A stretch of 52,330 bases of DNA, from assembly GCA_013372845.1 (NCBI GenBank), contig JAALOD010000009.1, positions 1 to 52,330 on the forward strand, in the 5' to 3' direction. Source of the DNA: Candidatus Udaeobacter sp. GTDB lineage: Bacteria > Verrucomicrobiota > Verrucomicrobiia > Chthoniobacterales > UBA10450. Both the position numbers and the translations under genes were made by a program. Each line of letters opens with the position of its first letter. Position 1 is the stretch's first letter. The notes under the pieces are model-generated. The model searched no databases. It was not told where the DNA came from and saw only the letters and a list, made by a program, of their open reading frames with translations. Positions 27,259-38,639 of the stretch are shown here, piece by piece.

Positions 27259-28251
27259 CTAGAACTTCACCTGGAGGGCCACTGCGCCCCCGAGGTTGGC
27301 CACTTGGTAATCGAAAACGCTTTGGTTCGATTGGCTTGCCGCCAACGTACTCACAGCGCTCACCGTAAGATATTTGTTCAAACGATAGTTTGCGGTAAGC
27401 GCGAGAATTTCGCTGATGTCGTCGCGGCCTCCTTCGTAATACTGGCGCACTACGAGCGTGCCCACGGCATTGACGAAAAAGGAGCGGGTGAGAACCGCCG
27501 AATACCCAAGATAGACTGCATAATCGCTTCGCTGGGCTGAGATCGCGTTGATGTTTGGCGGCTGTCCAGATTCCTCGGCCGCGATGCTGATATTCAAGTC
27601 GGCGCCCAGAGTGAGCGTTTGAGCGCGACCAAATTGAAACGGAATCCCCGCGTCTATGATGAAGGCGTGGTTTTGGAAGAAAGCCGCAAAGCTGTTTTTC
27701 TCGGTGAGCCGATTGTAATCGTACTCAACGCGCAAAAGCAGATTGTGCCACTGCGGCACGATATATCTGAAGCCGACTTCAAAATCAAAGCTTCCAAAAT
27801 TGAAGTTGTCGAATCGATCGTAATAAAACAGCTGCTCCCGGACATCAATCAGTCCGTACAGCGTGTTGGTGATCCGCGGCTCGTAAAAGGCTGCTGCTGC
27901 CGGTGCAACGACAAAATCGCTCTGCTCTCCGCTCCGCGTCAGAGCAACATTCGATGTCCAGTAAAACGGCGTGCCGACCGAAATGGTGAACGGTTGATAT
28001 TCTTCCACCCGTTTGAGGATTTGCTGTTCCCCGAGATCGGCGTCGCCAGGCGCTGCGGCAACATTGCCACCTTCGACAGCGCTTGGCGGGCCAGTGGTAG
28101 GAAAGGCCGACGGAGCCTGCTCGCGCGTCAACTGCGCCTGGTTTGCCGTCTGCGCCGAGCCGTCATTAGTTGAGGTAACAAAGAGCACGCACAACGTCGT
28201 GACGAACCCGCACAAATGACGGTCGATGCGAGATCTCACGAACGCGACCAC
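27259..28251 (-). CDS. Outer membrane beta-barrel protein
   Basis: 330 aa, signal peptide, alternating aromatic strands, terminal ...AVALQVKF. Confidence 0.75.
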   Translation of the reverse strand: MVAFVRSRIDRHLCGFVTTLCVLFVTSTNDGSAQTANQAQLTREQAPSAFPTTGPPSAVEGGNVAAAPGDADLGEQQILKRVEEYQPFTISVGTPFYWTSNVALTRSGEQSDFVVAPAAAAFYEPRITNTLYGLIDVREQLFYYDRFDNFNFGSFDFEVGFRYIVPQWHNLLLRVEYDYNRLTEKNSFAAFFQNHAFIIDAGIPFQFGRAQTLTLGADLNISIAAEESGQPPNINAISAQRSDYAVYLGYSAVLTRSFFVNAVGTLVVRQYYEGGRDDISEILALTANYRLNKYLTVSAVSTLAASQSNQSVFDYQVANLGGAVALQVKF

Positions 28252-28332
28252 TTCCTGCCTGGTTTGTCCATGACGCCGCTAATCTTCTCGGTCATATCAA
28301 TGAGCAGGTTGAATGTGCCAGGTGCCTAGTGG

Positions 28333-31300
28333 TTAGAAAGCCCGCGTGCCGCCACCAAGGCGATTATTGATCACTCCGCGATCGCGCGTTCGCCGAACAT
28401 CCGCCATGTCGCGGTCCGCTTTGATCATACGATTGACATTGAGGCGATCGGCGTTGACCGCGTGGCGCTGGCTGTGATGGGGAACCTTAAGCCTTCCATC
28501 AGCGCCTGGAACAGCACCATCGAGCAGAGAAAGCAACTGTCCGCTGTTTTGAATATTCATCACCGTTTTGGTCCTCTTCGCGTTCGTAGGATTGCCGGGC
28601 GACGGAGCATCAAACGGCGGGCGTTCTGAGAGTAGCCGCGGCCGGTTCGCACCGCGGCCAATAAACGTACCGGTAGTGTGGCCGTTACCGCCGAAGCCCG
28701 TATAGTTTGCGTTAGGGCTGCCCTCGGTAAAGTTTACATAAACATCAGCCGGATTTGGGCCGTCGATCCTGACCTTGACATCGTTGAAAATCGTGATCGA
28801 ATTCGCCGCCAGAATCTTTGCACTGTTCCCGCCGAGCGTGACGTTAGAAACGAAGTTGAGCTGGCCTTTACTTCCCGGCGCGTAAAGTTTCAATATCGTG
28901 TCAGCCGACAGGGTACCACCGCCGATAGTAAGCACACCGTTTGAGCCAAATACGCCGGCTTTGAGTACATCTGCGTGGGCGCTGGCATTATTGAATGTGA
29001 TCGATCCGTTCCCGTCCATGTAGGTGAGAAACGTCCCGCCTACGTTGTAATTGCCACCGTTAATCAGAATCGCGGCGGCTGCCGCCCCATCGCTGCCGTA
29101 AAACGCAATGGTTGCGTCGTTAGCAATGTTTGCGTTGCCGGCAACATCCATCCCGATAACACCTCCGCCGCCGATGACGCCGCCCTCGCTATTATCGATC
29201 TGAACCGATAAGGAATTCGCATTAATGTTCCCCGCCGCGGCGAGGCCAACAATGCCTCCGGTACCAATTTCTCCTCCGTTGTTCAGCAGCTCAAGCGTCA
29301 GATTGTTGGTGTTGAGGTTTCCTCCGATCGTGGCGAGAATGTTCGCCCCATTAACAACTTCATTGATGTTATTATTAACGCGAAGCGTAGTATCGCCGCC
29401 CGCGTCTGTAGTCAGATTGTTTCCGACACTTAAGAAAAGATTCGCGCCGGAGTTAACTACTTGGTGAACCGGAGTGATTATCTCGAGGTCAATTCCACCG
29501 GAGTTGGAGTCGTTGTGAGTGTTCAGATTATTGCCCACGAAGAGCGTCACATTTTCGCCGTTCTCTTGTGGAGACTGTACTGCCAGCTCGACCCCGGGGA
29601 ACAAATCGGCCGCGGTCAAATTACCGCCGACGCGAAGGTCGATATTGGCCCCCGTTCCTGATTGGTCAGTCGCCGACGTTTGCAATGCAAGTGATCCGCC
29701 AACAGTGAGATTTCTGTCCGCCAACACATCGATATTAGCTCCCGCTGTTAGATTGCTAATATCGGTGGCAATTGAGAAGTCGCCGCCGATCAGCAAGTCT
29801 GTGCCAGCGTAAAGCAGGACATTGAGACCCGAAGTAATTCCCCCATTTCGTCGAATAATGGTCAGGTCATTCGCAACATTGATCATCTGACCGGCGGAAA
29901 TACTCACATTCCCGTTAGAATTGAACGCCGTTTCATCAGAGATTTGACCGCTCCAATGCAAGTTTTGTCCGGCGAATAAAGTAATCGTCGGGGCATGGAT
30001 GGCTGCCTCACCGTTAATTGAAATGCTACGTCCAACGAATGCGTATAGATCGTCGGTTGTGATGCTCGACGTCATTGACATGTCGCGCTCGGCAAAAAGG
30101 CTGACTTGGCTTCCTGTGCTGATATTGGAGCCAAGGGTCAAATCACTGCTCGAACCGCGAGCGTAAATCGCCAAGTCGTGCAATCCGGAGAACGAAATGT
30201 TGGGACCCAGGGTAATTGAACCGTTCTGCGTTGCGAGCAAAAGGCCGCGGATACCTTCGAAGGTCAGTACGCCGCCGGCACCTCCGGAAGTAATGCCGTT
30301 AACGGCGATCAGGCCCAGATTGGTTTCACCATTTGTCGTGTCGATCGTTGGATCGCCAGTTAACTGGAGCGCGGTGAACTTGAAGCCCGCTCCCGAACTA
30401 TCGCCGATTAGGTCGTCGAAGCCGCTTGCGGTGTCAAAGGTCGATGTCGATCCAAAGGCCCACGCGGAGATCGGACCGTCAATCGATCGTCCGCGATAGA
30501 TTTTGCCGTAATCGGTTACGCCGTTGGTAGTGATGGAGGGATCAGTCGTAATGACTGTGCCACTCGTTATCACGTAAGGATTCGGGGAAGTAATCGTGCT
30601 TGGAGTACCAAACTTAGTCGGAGTCGGACTAACGCTCGGACTCGGACTAACGCTCGGACTTGGACTGACACTCGGGCTCGGACTAACGCTCGGACTCGGA
30701 CTAACGCTCGGACTTGGACTAACGCTCGGACTCGGACTGACGCTCGGACTCGGACTGACGCTCGGACTCGGACTAACGCTCGGACTCGGACTGACGCTCG
30801 GGTTTGGACTTGATGTCGAATTGCTTACTAAAACAACCGGGTTCGCGTTTGCGTTCTGATCGGTCGTGTCGATCACGTCTACTAGGTTTCTGGCAAGAGG
30901 CTGACTGGTTGGCAATTGCCCCGCAAGCTGCTGGTTAATCACGGCGAGGATCAACGGCAAGTTTGCCAGCGGCGGAAAATCTTGAATCAAACGCGACGTC
31001 TCAAGGACCAACTTTACATCAAACTTTTCCGGTTTCGTCATCCGCCCATCCGCCGTCATCATCATCATTTCGCCGCCGTGAACGGTCACAGCTTTTTCAG
31101 GATGACCAGCGGGATAAAACGTGCCGATCCCTTCCAAGACCATGAATTTCGTGGGCGGTCCCGTTGCCAAAAGAGCTGTACCACCTGTGACGGCCGCGGT
31201 GACAGCTGAAGTGCTGACCTTGACTGGGGCTTTATCGGGCGGGACCTCCAAGAGGACCGCACCACTGGTCAGGTCGAGTTCACGCGCACCGCGTTTAAAG

Positions 31301-31593
31301 CTGAAAATCGTATTCGCCCCAAGGCGCGTTATGGTGAGATCGCTAAAAGTCAGTTCGGCACGCGATTCCACGCCGGTACGCACCCCCATCTGCTGCGTGA
31401 CTGTGTCATTCACGGCCGCCGGCCGCGGTGCCCCCTGAGCTTCCAGCAACCGCACGTCCTGAATTATCTGCGAGACGTGCGCCTGTTGGATTTGTGCAGC
31501 GGTTCCAATTGGGCCTGTCCCAACAAAAAACAAGCAGACGCAAAACGGGCCGATCAGTCCACCCCACTGGGTTTGTATAAGAGACTTTTCCAT
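28333..31593 (-). CDS. Giant FecR-domain / beta-helix surface protein
   Basis: 1086 aa; signal peptide; FecR-like GVESRAELTFSDLTITRLGANTIFSF; Ser-Pro repeat linker; long G/N-rich haemagglutinin-like repeats. Confidence 0.82.
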   Translation of the reverse strand: MEKSLIQTQWGGLIGPFCVCLFFVGTGPIGTAAQIQQAHVSQIIQDVRLLEAQGAPRPAAVNDTVTQQMGVRTGVESRAELTFSDLTITRLGANTIFSFKRGARELDLTSGAVLLEVPPDKAPVKVSTSAVTAAVTGGTALLATGPPTKFMVLEGIGTFYPAGHPEKAVTVHGGEMMMMTADGRMTKPEKFDVKLVLETSRLIQDFPPLANLPLILAVINQQLAGQLPTSQPLARNLVDVIDTTDQNANANPVVLVSNSTSSPNPSVSPSPSVSPSPSVSPSPSVSPSPSVSPSPSVSPSPSVSPSPSVSPSPSVSPSPSVSPTPTKFGTPSTITSPNPYVITSGTVITTDPSITTNGVTDYGKIYRGRSIDGPISAWAFGSTSTFDTASGFDDLIGDSSGAGFKFTALQLTGDPTIDTTNGETNLGLIAVNGITSGGAGGVLTFEGIRGLLLATQNGSITLGPNISFSGLHDLAIYARGSSSDLTLGSNISTGSQVSLFAERDMSMTSSITTDDLYAFVGRSISINGEAAIHAPTITLFAGQNLHWSGQISDETAFNSNGNVSISAGQMINVANDLTIIRRNGGITSGLNVLLYAGTDLLIGGDFSIATDISNLTAGANIDVLADRNLTVGGSLALQTSATDQSGTGANIDLRVGGNLTAADLFPGVELAVQSPQENGENVTLFVGNNLNTHNDSNSGGIDLEIITPVHQVVNSGANLFLSVGNNLTTDAGGDTTLRVNNNINEVVNGANILATIGGNLNTNNLTLELLNNGGEIGTGGIVGLAAAGNINANSLSVQIDNSEGGVIGGGGVIGMDVAGNANIANDATIAFYGSDGAAAAAILINGGNYNVGGTFLTYMDGNGSITFNNASAHADVLKAGVFGSNGVLTIGGGTLSADTILKLYAPGSKGQLNFVSNVTLGGNSAKILAANSITIFNDVKVRIDGPNPADVYVNFTEGSPNANYTGFGGNGHTTGTFIGRGANRPRLLSERPPFDAPSPGNPTNAKRTKTVMNIQNSGQLLSLLDGAVPGADGRLKVPHHSQRHAVNADRLNVNRMIKADRDMADVRRTRDRGVINNRLGGGTRAF
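30626..30810. repeat. 18-bp coding tandem repeat, about 10 copies (SVSPSP)
   Basis: ggactcggactaacgctc-type unit at 18-bp spacing. Confidence 0.95.
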
Positions 31594-31602
31594 ATTCGGT
31601 CG

Positions 31603-32436
31603 CTACTGTGGGGCCGGGGCTGCTTTCGGACTCATGATTGGCGCTCGATGCGGCGTCACCAGCGCCGCAGTCGTGCGACCTGCTGTGTCGGTCTGCTCTT
31701 GGCCGACAGCCGACACTTGTGTGCCGCCCCCAAAAATGACCAGGTTTGTATCAATTAGAGTCTTGTTCGATTTCTCGCGCTGCTGCTTTTGGCTTTGTGC
31801 CGCGATCGACTTCACGCTCCGCAGTTGAGGAAAGTCGGTAATGAAGCGACTGGTTTTCATGAAGCGGTCAATATCGACATCTACGGGATCGCTGAGCGCA
31901 GACTCTGGGTTGCCAAACACCATTTGACCCGGACCGACGAGAACCGAATCGCCAAGATGTCCGGGGCGATACGTTCGCGCAGTGCCTTCCAACACCAAAA
32001 ATTTGTAGAAGCCTGGATGGTACTCGATCATGACGGTCGTGCCCGCCACGGCTGCAGCGACGCTGCCTGCGTGAATCGTTGCCCCATTTGCCTCTTTTGG
32101 AGCCTGAACAAGCACTGCTCCATCGCCCAGATTCAAACCGCGCGTCCCCCGAATAAAATCAAATGCAGTATGAGCAGTGAGGCGCACAACGGTTTCGTCA
32201 GAAAAAGTCACCTCAGCGCGCGATCCGTTGCCGGTCCGCACAATGGTCTGCTCGTGCACGATGTCGTTTACCAAAGCCCGCCGCCCGGTGTTCTTAGAGT
32301 CCGCTAATTGGACATGATTTTTTACTCGGGTGACCCGCGCTTCGTTAGTCGAAGCGGCATCCAGCCGGCCGGGAAACGACATCGCAAGGAACGCGATAAT
32401 CGTTATGAGGACAAAAAGGCAAAGCTGCCGGTTCAT
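31603..32436 (-). CDS. FecR domain-containing protein
   Basis: TIVRTGNGSRAEVTFSDETVVRLTAHTAFDFIRGTRGLNLGDGAVLVQAPKEANGATIHAGSVAAAVAGTTVMIEY. Confidence 0.85.
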   Translation of the reverse strand: MNRQLCLFVLITIIAFLAMSFPGRLDAASTNEARVTRVKNHVQLADSKNTGRRALVNDIVHEQTIVRTGNGSRAEVTFSDETVVRLTAHTAFDFIRGTRGLNLGDGAVLVQAPKEANGATIHAGSVAAAVAGTTVMIEYHPGFYKFLVLEGTARTYRPGHLGDSVLVGPGQMVFGNPESALSDPVDVDIDRFMKTSRFITDFPQLRSVKSIAAQSQKQQREKSNKTLIDTNLVIFGGGTQVSAVGQEQTDTAGRTTAALVTPHRAPIMSPKAAPAPQ

Positions 32437-35825: not shown

Positions 35826-38639
35826 TCACCGCGGGGTGATGCCTTCGGCAAGATCAACGTGAAACGTCTGTTTCATCTTCGTTGTACCAAAGGTTAACTC
35901 CGCTGTGTACTCTCCAGCTGGGAGAAGCCGCTTGGGATCGTCACCACCGTATTCAGCAATCACGTCCTTGGTCGGCCGCAGGTCCCAGGTCAACCGCGTA
36001 AAACCCGGTGTGCCCGGCGCTTTTAGATTTGCGACTGGCTGTCCGGTTGATTTTGTCACGACGATTTTGATTTCGTCGCCCGTAAACTCTCGCACCCAGA
36101 CTGTGAACAACGCCCCTTCAGGCGGATTTTGGCCGCGATAAATCCCCTTGCCATTCGAATCAACAAAGCCCGGTTGAAGATAAGCGCCGGTCACGGAACG
36201 CACGCTAAACAATTGAGCAGGCTTGGACGCAATCTCCGGTGTGAATTCGCGAAACGGGATCGTGTCGTCAAGAATGGCAATGCTGCGACCATGTGTTGCG
36301 ATGACAAGATCTGAGGTGCGCGGATGAATCTGGATGTCATCCACTCGGACCGAAGGAACATCGCCGATGCGCACCCAATGCGCGCCTTGATCGAACGACG
36401 CTAACACTCCGAAGTGCGTACCAGCGTAGAGTAATTTAGGATTGACCGGATCCTCGCGGACAACTTCAACAGGATTGCCCTGCGGAAGATCGCCTGTGAC
36501 GGATAGCCATGTTTTTCCCAGATCAGCGGTACGCAAAATCAAGGGGCTGTCATTACCCGAGCGATACGCATTGATCGCAACGTACGCCACATTCGCATCG
36601 AAATTGGAAGGCTCGATACGCACGACCCATTGACCGCGCGCCGGCTCCGGCAGATTGCTCGTCAATTCAGTCCATTTGCCACCGTCATTCTCTGTAATCC
36701 AAAGCCTCCCATCATCCGTCCCCGCCCACAAAAGACCAGCGCGCTTCGGTGACTCGGCAAGCGAAAAGACGACCCCGTAATTTTCCGCGCCGCTTCCAGT
36801 GGCGTTTGTTTTAGTTGCATCGTTGTACGTAAGGTCGGGACTGATCACAGAATATTTTTCCATCCGGTCGGTGAGTTTGAAGACACAGTTGCCGCCCAGG
36901 TAAATCACGCCCGGCTTATGCCGGCTCATGATCATTGGTGAATTCCAATGAAAGCGATAGCGCGGTTGACCTTCGGCTGGCTCGGGACGCAAACGGCGTA
37001 TCTCGCCATTTCGCAAATTGATCCGATGGACTTCGCCCTGCTGACTTTCCGCATAAAAGGTATCGCGGTCGGCTGGATCGAACAGGACATAAAAGCCGTC
37101 CCCACCAGCAAGCGCCGTCCAATCGCAGTTGCGAATGCCTTCCTTGCTCTGGACTCCGCTCGGCCCCACCCAGTTTTCGTTGTCTTGGAGGCCGCCGGCA
37201 ATTCGGAAATACGGTTTCGTGTCGTCTAGCGAAATCCGATAATATTCTCCCGAAGGAATCTTGTTCAGATGATCCCAGTTTTTGCCGCCGGCGAAACTTT
37301 GATACACACCGCCATCCGTCCCTAGGAGCAAACGTTGGCAAACTGGCGGTTTTGGAGGCTTGTTTTTATCTTCCGGTTTGGGCGGCTTCGGCGGCGGCGC
37401 TGTGCCGGGTTGAATCGCCAGCGCATGACAATCCGGATGAACTTTCTCACTTAGGTCTTCGCGAAAATTCTTGCCGCCATCATCAGACACCAGCAGGGCG
37501 AAGCCCAGAACATAAACGCGCTGATCGTTTGCTGGATCAATACGAATCTGGCTGAAATAAAATGGACGCGGATCAATGGCGCTCATGCGCGTCCATTTTT
37601 CGCCTCCGTCATCGGATCGAAAAACGCCGCCGGTCTTACTGCGCAGATCATCCAGCCTGCCAAATCCTCCCTCGTAACTTTGCACGACTGCCATGACGAT
37701 CCTCGGGTTAGTTGCGCTGATCGCCAGACCGATGCGACCGATTTGAGTGGGCAAACCGCCGGCAAGCTTCTTCCAAGTCGTGCCACCGTCTGTACTCTTG
37801 AAAATTCCCCCGACATCTTCACCACCAGACACGCCGGGGCCGGAAGTGAAACTCCATGGCGTGCGTTGTCGCGCATAAAGTGCAGCGTAAACTGTCTCCG
37901 CGTTCGTGGGATCGATGATCACGTCGCCACATCCAGTGCGCGCATCGTGTGGAGCAGCTGCTTTCAAAACCAGTTTCCATGTTTTGCCCGCATCAGTGGT
38001 CTTGAACAATCCGCGTTCGCCGCCATCCGCCCACAGGTTGCCCATTGCGGCGACGTAGGCGACGTCCGGTTTTTTGGGATCGACAACAATCCGCGCGATG
38101 GTACGGCTGTTTTTCAATCCGACGTTCTGCCACTTTTCTCCGCCATCGGTCGACCGATAAACACCATCGCCCCAGCCAGACGAATTCCGGTCGTTCGCCT
38201 CACCCGTTCCCACCCAAATCACATCTGAATCCGATGGCGCAACCGCGACTGCGCCAATCGAGAGCATCGGTTGCTTGTCGAAGATTGATTCAAAACTAAC
38301 GCCGTTGTCGTTCGTTTTGAAAACGCCGCCGTGTGCCAGGCCGACGTAGAAGACAAAAGGATTATGTGGACTAATCGCAATGTCCGAAACACGCCCACCC
38401 ATCACGGCCGGACCAATCGAGCGCGCTTTCAGATTTTTGAAAAGGACATCGGTCAGCTCGGGCGGGGTCGGCGACAGAGTCGGCGTCGGAGATGAAGATG
38501 AAGACAAAGACACGGTCGCGGTGGGCGACGCAACTGTGGCCGGCAAACGCCCGGGTTGCGTCTCCTCTTGTGCGGGCAGGCTGGGGACCGCACAAATCGA
38601 AAACAGCAAAGCGCACAAGTATGAAAATCGATTAGTCAT
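35826..38639 (-). CDS. BNR/sortilin-type beta-propeller exoprotein (VPS10/HCF136-like repeats)
   Basis: 937 aa; signal peptide; repeated GGVFKTNDNGVSFESIF, GVYRSTDGGEKWQNVG, LFKTTDAGKTWKLV. Confidence 0.9.
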   Translation of the reverse strand: MTNRFSYLCALLFSICAVPSLPAQEETQPGRLPATVASPTATVSLSSSSSPTPTLSPTPPELTDVLFKNLKARSIGPAVMGGRVSDIAISPHNPFVFYVGLAHGGVFKTNDNGVSFESIFDKQPMLSIGAVAVAPSDSDVIWVGTGEANDRNSSGWGDGVYRSTDGGEKWQNVGLKNSRTIARIVVDPKKPDVAYVAAMGNLWADGGERGLFKTTDAGKTWKLVLKAAAPHDARTGCGDVIIDPTNAETVYAALYARQRTPWSFTSGPGVSGGEDVGGIFKSTDGGTTWKKLAGGLPTQIGRIGLAISATNPRIVMAVVQSYEGGFGRLDDLRSKTGGVFRSDDGGEKWTRMSAIDPRPFYFSQIRIDPANDQRVYVLGFALLVSDDGGKNFREDLSEKVHPDCHALAIQPGTAPPPKPPKPEDKNKPPKPPVCQRLLLGTDGGVYQSFAGGKNWDHLNKIPSGEYYRISLDDTKPYFRIAGGLQDNENWVGPSGVQSKEGIRNCDWTALAGGDGFYVLFDPADRDTFYAESQQGEVHRINLRNGEIRRLRPEPAEGQPRYRFHWNSPMIMSRHKPGVIYLGGNCVFKLTDRMEKYSVISPDLTYNDATKTNATGSGAENYGVVFSLAESPKRAGLLWAGTDDGRLWITENDGGKWTELTSNLPEPARGQWVVRIEPSNFDANVAYVAINAYRSGNDSPLILRTADLGKTWLSVTGDLPQGNPVEVVREDPVNPKLLYAGTHFGVLASFDQGAHWVRIGDVPSVRVDDIQIHPRTSDLVIATHGRSIAILDDTIPFREFTPEIASKPAQLFSVRSVTGAYLQPGFVDSNGKGIYRGQNPPEGALFTVWVREFTGDEIKIVVTKSTGQPVANLKAPGTPGFTRLTWDLRPTKDVIAEYGGDDPKRLLPAGEYTAELTFGTTKMKQTFHVDLAEGITPR

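Follow-up and report, generated by a model that had tools for sequence, protein, structure and literature searches.

Two FecR-domain proteins and an outer-membrane beta-barrel of Candidatus Udaeobacter sp., and their possible tie to CHASE2 cyclases of Verrucomicrobiota

The gene trio and its predicted products

The stretch of DNA analyzed here (the window) is a 52-kb contig (52,330 nucleotides; JAALOD010000009.1) of Candidatus Udaeobacter sp., from a 3.2-Mb source genome that is 83% complete. At positions 27,259 to 32,436, its minus strand carries three consecutive open reading frames (ORFs) of 277, 1086 and 330 amino acids (aa), separated by 9 and 81 bp, which encode a small FecR-domain protein, a giant FecR-domain protein and an outer-membrane beta-barrel (Table 1). 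This arrangement had been proposed in a preliminary description, and ORFs, Pfam and AlphaFold2 agree with it. All three genes are under purifying selection, with ratios of nonsynonymous to synonymous substitution (Ka/Ks) of 0.11-0.25 against congeners, and the trio is therefore composed of genuine coding genes.

Both FecR proteins exceed the Pfam cut-off of 24 bits (46.3 bits for the small protein, 43.8 for the giant). The FecR homologues inspected by eye start with a signal-peptide-like segment directly followed by the FecR module, and in none of them was a cytoplasmic N-terminal anti-sigma domain with a single transmembrane helix found. A sigma factor and a TonB receptor had also been described as missing from the module. 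In Pfam scans Sigma70_r2 (sigma-70 region 2) had no match on the window contig and 19 elsewhere in the genome, where a gene for an extracytoplasmic function sigma factor had been of interest; Plug (TonB-dependent receptor) had none on the contig and six elsewhere. The earlier view that FecR does not act here as a sigma regulator is supported by these data.

The giant was modelled with AlphaFold2 from 40 aligned giants, at a mean predicted local distance difference test (pLDDT) score of 79.3. The model comprises a FecR domain, a disordered linker (residues ~227-321), a beta-solenoid (residues 340-953) and a short tail. As first described, the linker is Ser-Pro-rich and is encoded by a tandem repeat. 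In a Foldseek search the FecR part matched 4m0h/4m0n (a Parabacteroides anti-sigma protein) and 6ovk (the PupR periplasmic signalling domain), with E ~2e-5 and a root-mean-square deviation of 2.7-3.2; the modelled module is thus a match to the periplasmic signalling domains of FecR/PupR-type anti-sigma regulators. The predicted solenoid has ~60 short strands, a Gly+Asn content of 25%, a net charge of ~-33 and a length of ~10-16 nm, varying with the number of residues per coil. The repeats had been called haemagglutinin-like: the long beta-solenoid of the model fits this, but Pfam gave no haemagglutinin or two-partner secretion (TPS) match in the repeat part. Among the 40 giants, all had FecR and none a TPS domain. 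A TPS profile scan of the genome was likewise negative, a weak absence, as no control genome matched either. The N-terminal FecR module is the sole part common to FecR partners of very different length. In several congeners, FecR stretches with 51-58% identity to the N terminus of the giant contain one or two stop codons and are perhaps decayed copies.

The barrel model (AlphaFold2, 73 aligned barrels) has 12 strands and a mean pLDDT of 80.9, mostly >90 in the barrel region. A pre-barrel segment of ~60 aa is poorly modelled. It holds the motif PxDxDLGEQxILK, in which Gly74 is invariant and Asp72, Gln76 and Leu79 are near-invariant across the 73 barrels. When conservation was compared by region, this motif was found within the best-conserved stretch of the protein, and it is a candidate docking or plug segment. 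The best Pfam match, BBP2_2 (18.6 bits), falls under its cut-off of 23.7. A terminal Phe, typical of substrates of the barrel assembly machinery, ends nearly all complete barrels, including that of the window. No POTRA domain was detected by Pfam in the 73 barrels, and no plug was found in the window barrel. In Foldseek searches the model matched numerous channels of the outer membrane and the translocators of autotransporters, with template modelling (TM) scores of at most ~0.6; NalP, EstA and FapF were among the matches, porins and small-molecule channels scored equally, and OmpG, CymA and COG4313 were among the channels resembled. The predicted fold class is clear, but function is not fixed by such modest scores.

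Table 1. Coordinates of the trio, its parts and related features at other loci
Feature	Position	Strand	Evidence
Small FecR-domain protein, 277 aa; Sec signal peptide, Pro-rich tail	31603..32436	-	ORF; PF04773 46.3 bits; Ka/Ks 0.19-0.25
FecR core of small FecR protein	31978-32241	-	Pfam FecR
Giant FecR protein, 1086 aa; signal peptide, FecR module, Ser-Pro linker, beta-solenoid, C-terminal cap, basic tail	28333..31593	-	ORF; Pfam; AlphaFold2; Foldseek; Ka/Ks
FecR module of giant, conserved 180-aa block common with small FecR protein	30961..31491	-	Profile match; Foldseek
Tandem repeat coding Ser-Pro-rich linker of giant, 18 bp x 10.2	30618..30801	-	
Predicted beta-solenoid of giant, residues 340-953	28735..30576	-	AlphaFold2
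Outer-membrane beta-barrel, 330 aa; GTG start, signal peptide, C-terminal Phe, 12 predicted strands	27259..28251	-	ORF; AlphaFold2
Pre-barrel motif P-x-D-x-D-L-G-E-Q-x-I-L-K of barrel protein	28009..28050	-	Conservation in 73 barrels
cNMP-binding histidine kinases directly downstream of barrel-FecR pair	L048:5981-7267, L049:9078-10253		
cNMP-binding MscS channel directly downstream of barrel-FecR pair	L158:7836-9338		
Stop-interrupted FecR stretches in congeners	G002:C4:12733-13056, G008:C72:1947-2282, G010:C176:61788-62111, G012:C291:11423-11761, G026:C192:1058-1396, G031:C527:2667-2990		
cNMP, cyclic nucleoside monophosphate.

Barrel-FecR pairs and CHASE2 cyclases in Verrucomicrobiota

The preliminary description had allowed for a loss of synteny between barrel and FecR genes in relatives; the opposite was found. 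Among the relatives, 28 barrel matches have an adjoining FecR gene wherever the contig extends far enough, and the same applies to the strong barrel matches in a 388-genome sample of the phylum. When named genomes were searched with FecR as the sole query, 67 Verrucomicrobiota loci were identified. A barrel gene is present in 53 of these, always on the same strand (53/53) and, in 52 of the 53 pairs, without room for an intervening gene; seven of the remaining 14 loci are cut by a contig end and seven have no barrel in the available DNA. These data strongly support tight synteny of the pair over the phylum. The named near relatives of the window are uncultured soil Verrucomicrobia and Chthoniobacterales metagenome-assembled genomes. 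The usual order is barrel followed by the FecR gene(s), one to three per barrel, and the order in the window's clade is FecR, giant FecR, barrel; in many family members the barrel is accompanied by a FecR protein of only ~270 aa. No relative was found on viral contigs, nor, at E 1e-5, any of the small FecR protein on plasmids. The same FecR-giant-barrel trio, with a small FecR protein 64% identical to that of the window, is present on a contig binned as Acidobacteria gp1 (L110; QIAB01000137), by mis-binning or transfer.

In many lineages the gene just upstream of the barrel is divergent from it and encodes a protein with CHASE2 and adenylate/guanylate cyclase domains (Pfam CHASE2 and Guanylate_cyc). 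With a profile built from this divergent neighbour, a CHASE2 cyclase gene was located at <=6 kb in 29/68 distinct barrel loci. The linkage was also examined in the 388-genome sample with the Pfam CHASE2 model, taking as barrel-bearing those genomes with a barrel score >85 bits and excluding the window's own (n=18). CHASE2 lies within ~5 kb of a barrel in 17 of the 18, in eight cases head to head at a distance of ~0.5 kb or less (G044, G121, G221, G272, G289, G331, G361 and G372); the sole exception, G070, belongs to the window's family. Anywhere in the genome, CHASE2 is present in 18/18 barrel genomes compared to 123/370 others (Fisher p = 6e-9, uncorrected for kinship of genomes). Downstream of the pair, cNMP-binding genes were found at L048, L049, L052, L154 and L158-L160; the histidine kinases and the MscS channel among their products (Table 1) are candidate effectors. 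The adjacency of the pair to a CHASE2 cyclase gene, sometimes with cNMP-binding genes, suggests a role in signalling. In Ruegeria a FecR gene directly precedes a CHASE2 cyclase gene. Among the neighbours that were identified, no gene for a sigma factor or a TonB receptor was seen next to the pair.

Two further arrangements were observed. Besides the linked pair, three genomes carry a second barrel-FecR pair unlinked to CHASE2 (G121:C1, G221:C2 and G289:C49; L102, L077 and L103). In relatives of the window, a gene for a large SprB-repeat protein is divergent from the barrel at L113:2-2407 and L063:1487-5956, where others have the cyclase.

The window's genome has two CHASE2 genes, on contigs C53 and C64. 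The C53 cyclase (G000:C53) has no FecR or barrel gene alongside and shares 84% identity with the cyclase that is linked to a barrel at locus L043 of congener G012. In a quick tree with only Shimodaira-Hasegawa-like approximate likelihood ratio test (SH-aLRT) supports, it was sister to the L043 cyclase (100% SH-aLRT) inside the barrel-linked clade, and the C64 copy fell outside; a Mur-ligase gene lies downstream of both the C53 and the L043 cyclase. The C53-type cyclase is kept in 11/11 genomes of the genus that bear a barrel, counting that of the window. A likely partner cyclase, judging by this orthology, is present in the window's genome. At the C64 locus (L070:4440-8519) a gene for a FecR-TPR protein (629 aa) is followed by one for a CHASE2 cyclase (667 aa), and this second FecR-CHASE2 pair has no barrel.

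Proposed function and rival explanations

On balance we favour, with modest confidence, the reading that the trio represents a diverged branch of an envelope-signalling module made up of barrel, FecR and CHASE2, in which the cyclase has become unlinked and one FecR partner has been greatly enlarged. This reading starts from the genes, their predicted folds, the barrel-FecR synteny, the linkage of barrel to CHASE2 and the orthologous cyclase that the genome retains; from these we infer physical contacts, a direction of signalling, a cyclic nucleotide output and a location for the giant. The module would consist of the 12-strand outer-membrane barrel, one to three exported FecR proteins and an inner-membrane CHASE2 adenylate/guanylate cyclase, with cyclic-nucleotide-binding effectors added in some lineages. 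The barrel may hold or sense something at the outer membrane, and the FecR module may dock on its periplasmic face, perhaps at the conserved pre-barrel motif. Together they would set the activity of the cyclase and so change intracellular cyclic AMP (cAMP) or cyclic GMP. Such a scheme would resemble FecA-FecR-FecI, with the barrel in place of the TonB receptor and the cyclase in place of the sigma factor. Within the window's lineage, the trio would have parted from the cyclase, which stays elsewhere in the genome, and the Ser-Pro linker and beta-solenoid of the giant would probably span or exit the envelope as a sensing or contact part.

Several results weigh against this reading. No cyclase gene adjoins the trio in the window or in most of its clade. 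The C53-type cyclase is also present in 17/24 congeners without a barrel match, several of which have a lone FecR gene elsewhere; a strict dependence of CHASE2 presence on the barrel within the genus is not supported by this pattern. Finally, FecR proteins >1070 aa occur in 0/29 linked compared to 8/23 unlinked loci. Where the cyclase is linked, the median length of the FecR proteins is ~306 aa; for the longest FecR protein at unlinked loci with both flanks available it is 925 aa. The confinement of giants to unlinked loci could reflect a change of function. Most of the unlinked giants are from a single part of the order, so they represent one or a few evolutionary events.

The strongest rival explanation is surface display or export, which we regard as unlikely yet deserving serious attention. 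The FecR module would be a targeting or docking domain, the POTRA-less barrel would anchor or export FecR-fused beta-solenoid adhesins, and the link to the cyclase would have been lost once the module became structural. This would account for the giants at unlinked loci, for a barrel having as many as three FecR partners, and for partners of varied length having only the N-terminal FecR module in common, like the TPS domain of TpsA proteins. The solenoids of the longest giants (up to ~2200 aa) have a computed length of ~30-40 nm at 22 aa per coil, which suggests that they leave the periplasm, being probably too long to stand within it. The Foldseek matches of the predicted 12-strand barrel also include FapF and autotransporter translocators. 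However, porins match equally well at the low TM scores obtained, POTRA is missing, and the many barrels paired with a ~270-aa FecR protein have nothing obvious to display. The CHASE2 linkage would be left unexplained. The preliminary description had proposed a surface-display module; its stand-alone form is not supported as the preferred explanation, as the pair adjoins a CHASE2 cyclase gene in many lineages, and display of the giant stays as a rival.

Both ideas can be combined, although we consider the result doubtful: FecR would be a general docking or export tag, the barrel would carry FecR-solenoids to the surface, and their engagement would be read back by the CHASE2 cyclase, giving a surface-contact sensor with a cyclic-nucleotide report.

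A purely structural role, in which the FecR proteins are spacers between outer membrane and peptidoglycan on a channel-forming barrel and take no part in signalling, appears distinctly improbable. The Pro-rich tails and the Ser-Pro linker are compatible with it, the barrel resembles channels as well as anything, and a LysM gene lies near the pair both in the window, where a convergent LysM-TPR gene adjoins, and at L127. Against this stand the close linkage to CHASE2 cyclases throughout the phylum and the position of the LysM gene, which is encoded on the other strand and was confined, among the loci seen, to the window's clade. That the trio is a degenerate FecI-FecR-FecA iron-signalling system, for which only the FecR domain speaks, is scarcely credible and can be set aside: a signal peptide stands in place of the cytoplasmic anti-sigma domain, the contig lacks sigma and plug matches, the 12-strand barrel has no plug, and neither gene type was seen beside the pair in the identified neighbours.

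Relation to known systems and neighbouring genes

The FecA-FecR-FecI system has in common with the window system the FecR fold and the scheme of an outer-membrane barrel, a periplasmic relay and a cytoplasmic output, but the window system is without sigma factor, TonB-dependent receptor or cytoplasmic anti-sigma domain. Two-partner secretion (type Vb) is similar in that a barrel gene adjoins the gene for a large, repetitive beta-solenoid protein whose N-terminal domain is conserved. The absence of a TPS domain and POTRA, together with 12 strands instead of 16, rules out a classical pair of this type, as the preliminary description had held for the POTRA-less barrel; the models of giant and barrel that it had called for gave the FecR-linker-solenoid and 12-strand architectures presented above.

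Links of CHASE2 receptors to FecR or to barrels are already published in other phyla, and the Verrucomicrobiota module joins both. In Campylobacterota, genes for CHASE2 cyclases are clustered with those for a phosphodiesterase, a TPR protein and an outer-membrane protein that has a FecR domain (PMC9239204), and the Burkholderia BiofilmReg operon combines FecR-LysM with a CHASE2 histidine kinase (PMC5192318). In both, as in Verrucomicrobiota, an exported FecR-domain protein is genetically tied to a CHASE2 receptor, but neither description includes a dedicated 12-strand barrel. The Verrucomicrobiota differ further in that the cyclase gene is mostly divergent from the pair (unlinked in the window) and FecR is multiplied, in some cases with giant beta-solenoids. 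In Sinorhizobium meliloti, the barrel NsrA acts via the CHASE2 cyclases CyaK/CyaD1/CyaD2, cAMP and Clr (PMC7529298, PMC13001267); the targets of Clr include the FecR protein SMc02177, which is not a demonstrated receptor partner (PMC5498481). The likeness is one of scheme: an outer-membrane beta-barrel that feeds, or in the window's case would feed, CHASE2 cyclases and cAMP. NsrA is a far larger protein, whose barrel lies at residues 600-1200. Lsa33 of Leptospira, a FecR-domain surface adhesin reported to bind host ligands (PMC3444417), also has the FecR domain in an exported protein, but the NCBIfam similarity is weak (19.7 bits, E 4e-4, far under the family cut-off), and Lsa33 is a predicted lipoprotein with no barrel partner described. 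The literature searched, which takes in few subscription papers, yielded no published report of the barrel-FecR-CHASE2 combination, and for Verrucomicrobia no account of FecR domains or of CHASE2 cyclases linked to a barrel.

What CHASE2 receptors sense, and how an outside signal crosses to the inner-membrane cyclase, is a largely open question, for which NsrA is the one worked case found of an outer-membrane signal reaching a CHASE2 cyclase. A compact barrel-FecR-CHASE2 cluster kept phylum-wide makes the relay question tractable with three genes. Many signal-peptide-bearing "FecR domain-containing proteins" may, as suggested here, belong to cyclic-nucleotide signalling and not to iron regulation, and the giant FecR solenoids of soil Verrucomicrobia, most of them uncultured, are candidate contact or ligand sensors.

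The trio is flanked on one side by the convergent LysM-TPR gene and on the other by genes for RNase D, Rho and CoaE. Upstream of the latter three, the minus strand of the window encodes a 937-aa Sortilin-Vps10/BNR-repeat protein at positions 35826-38639.

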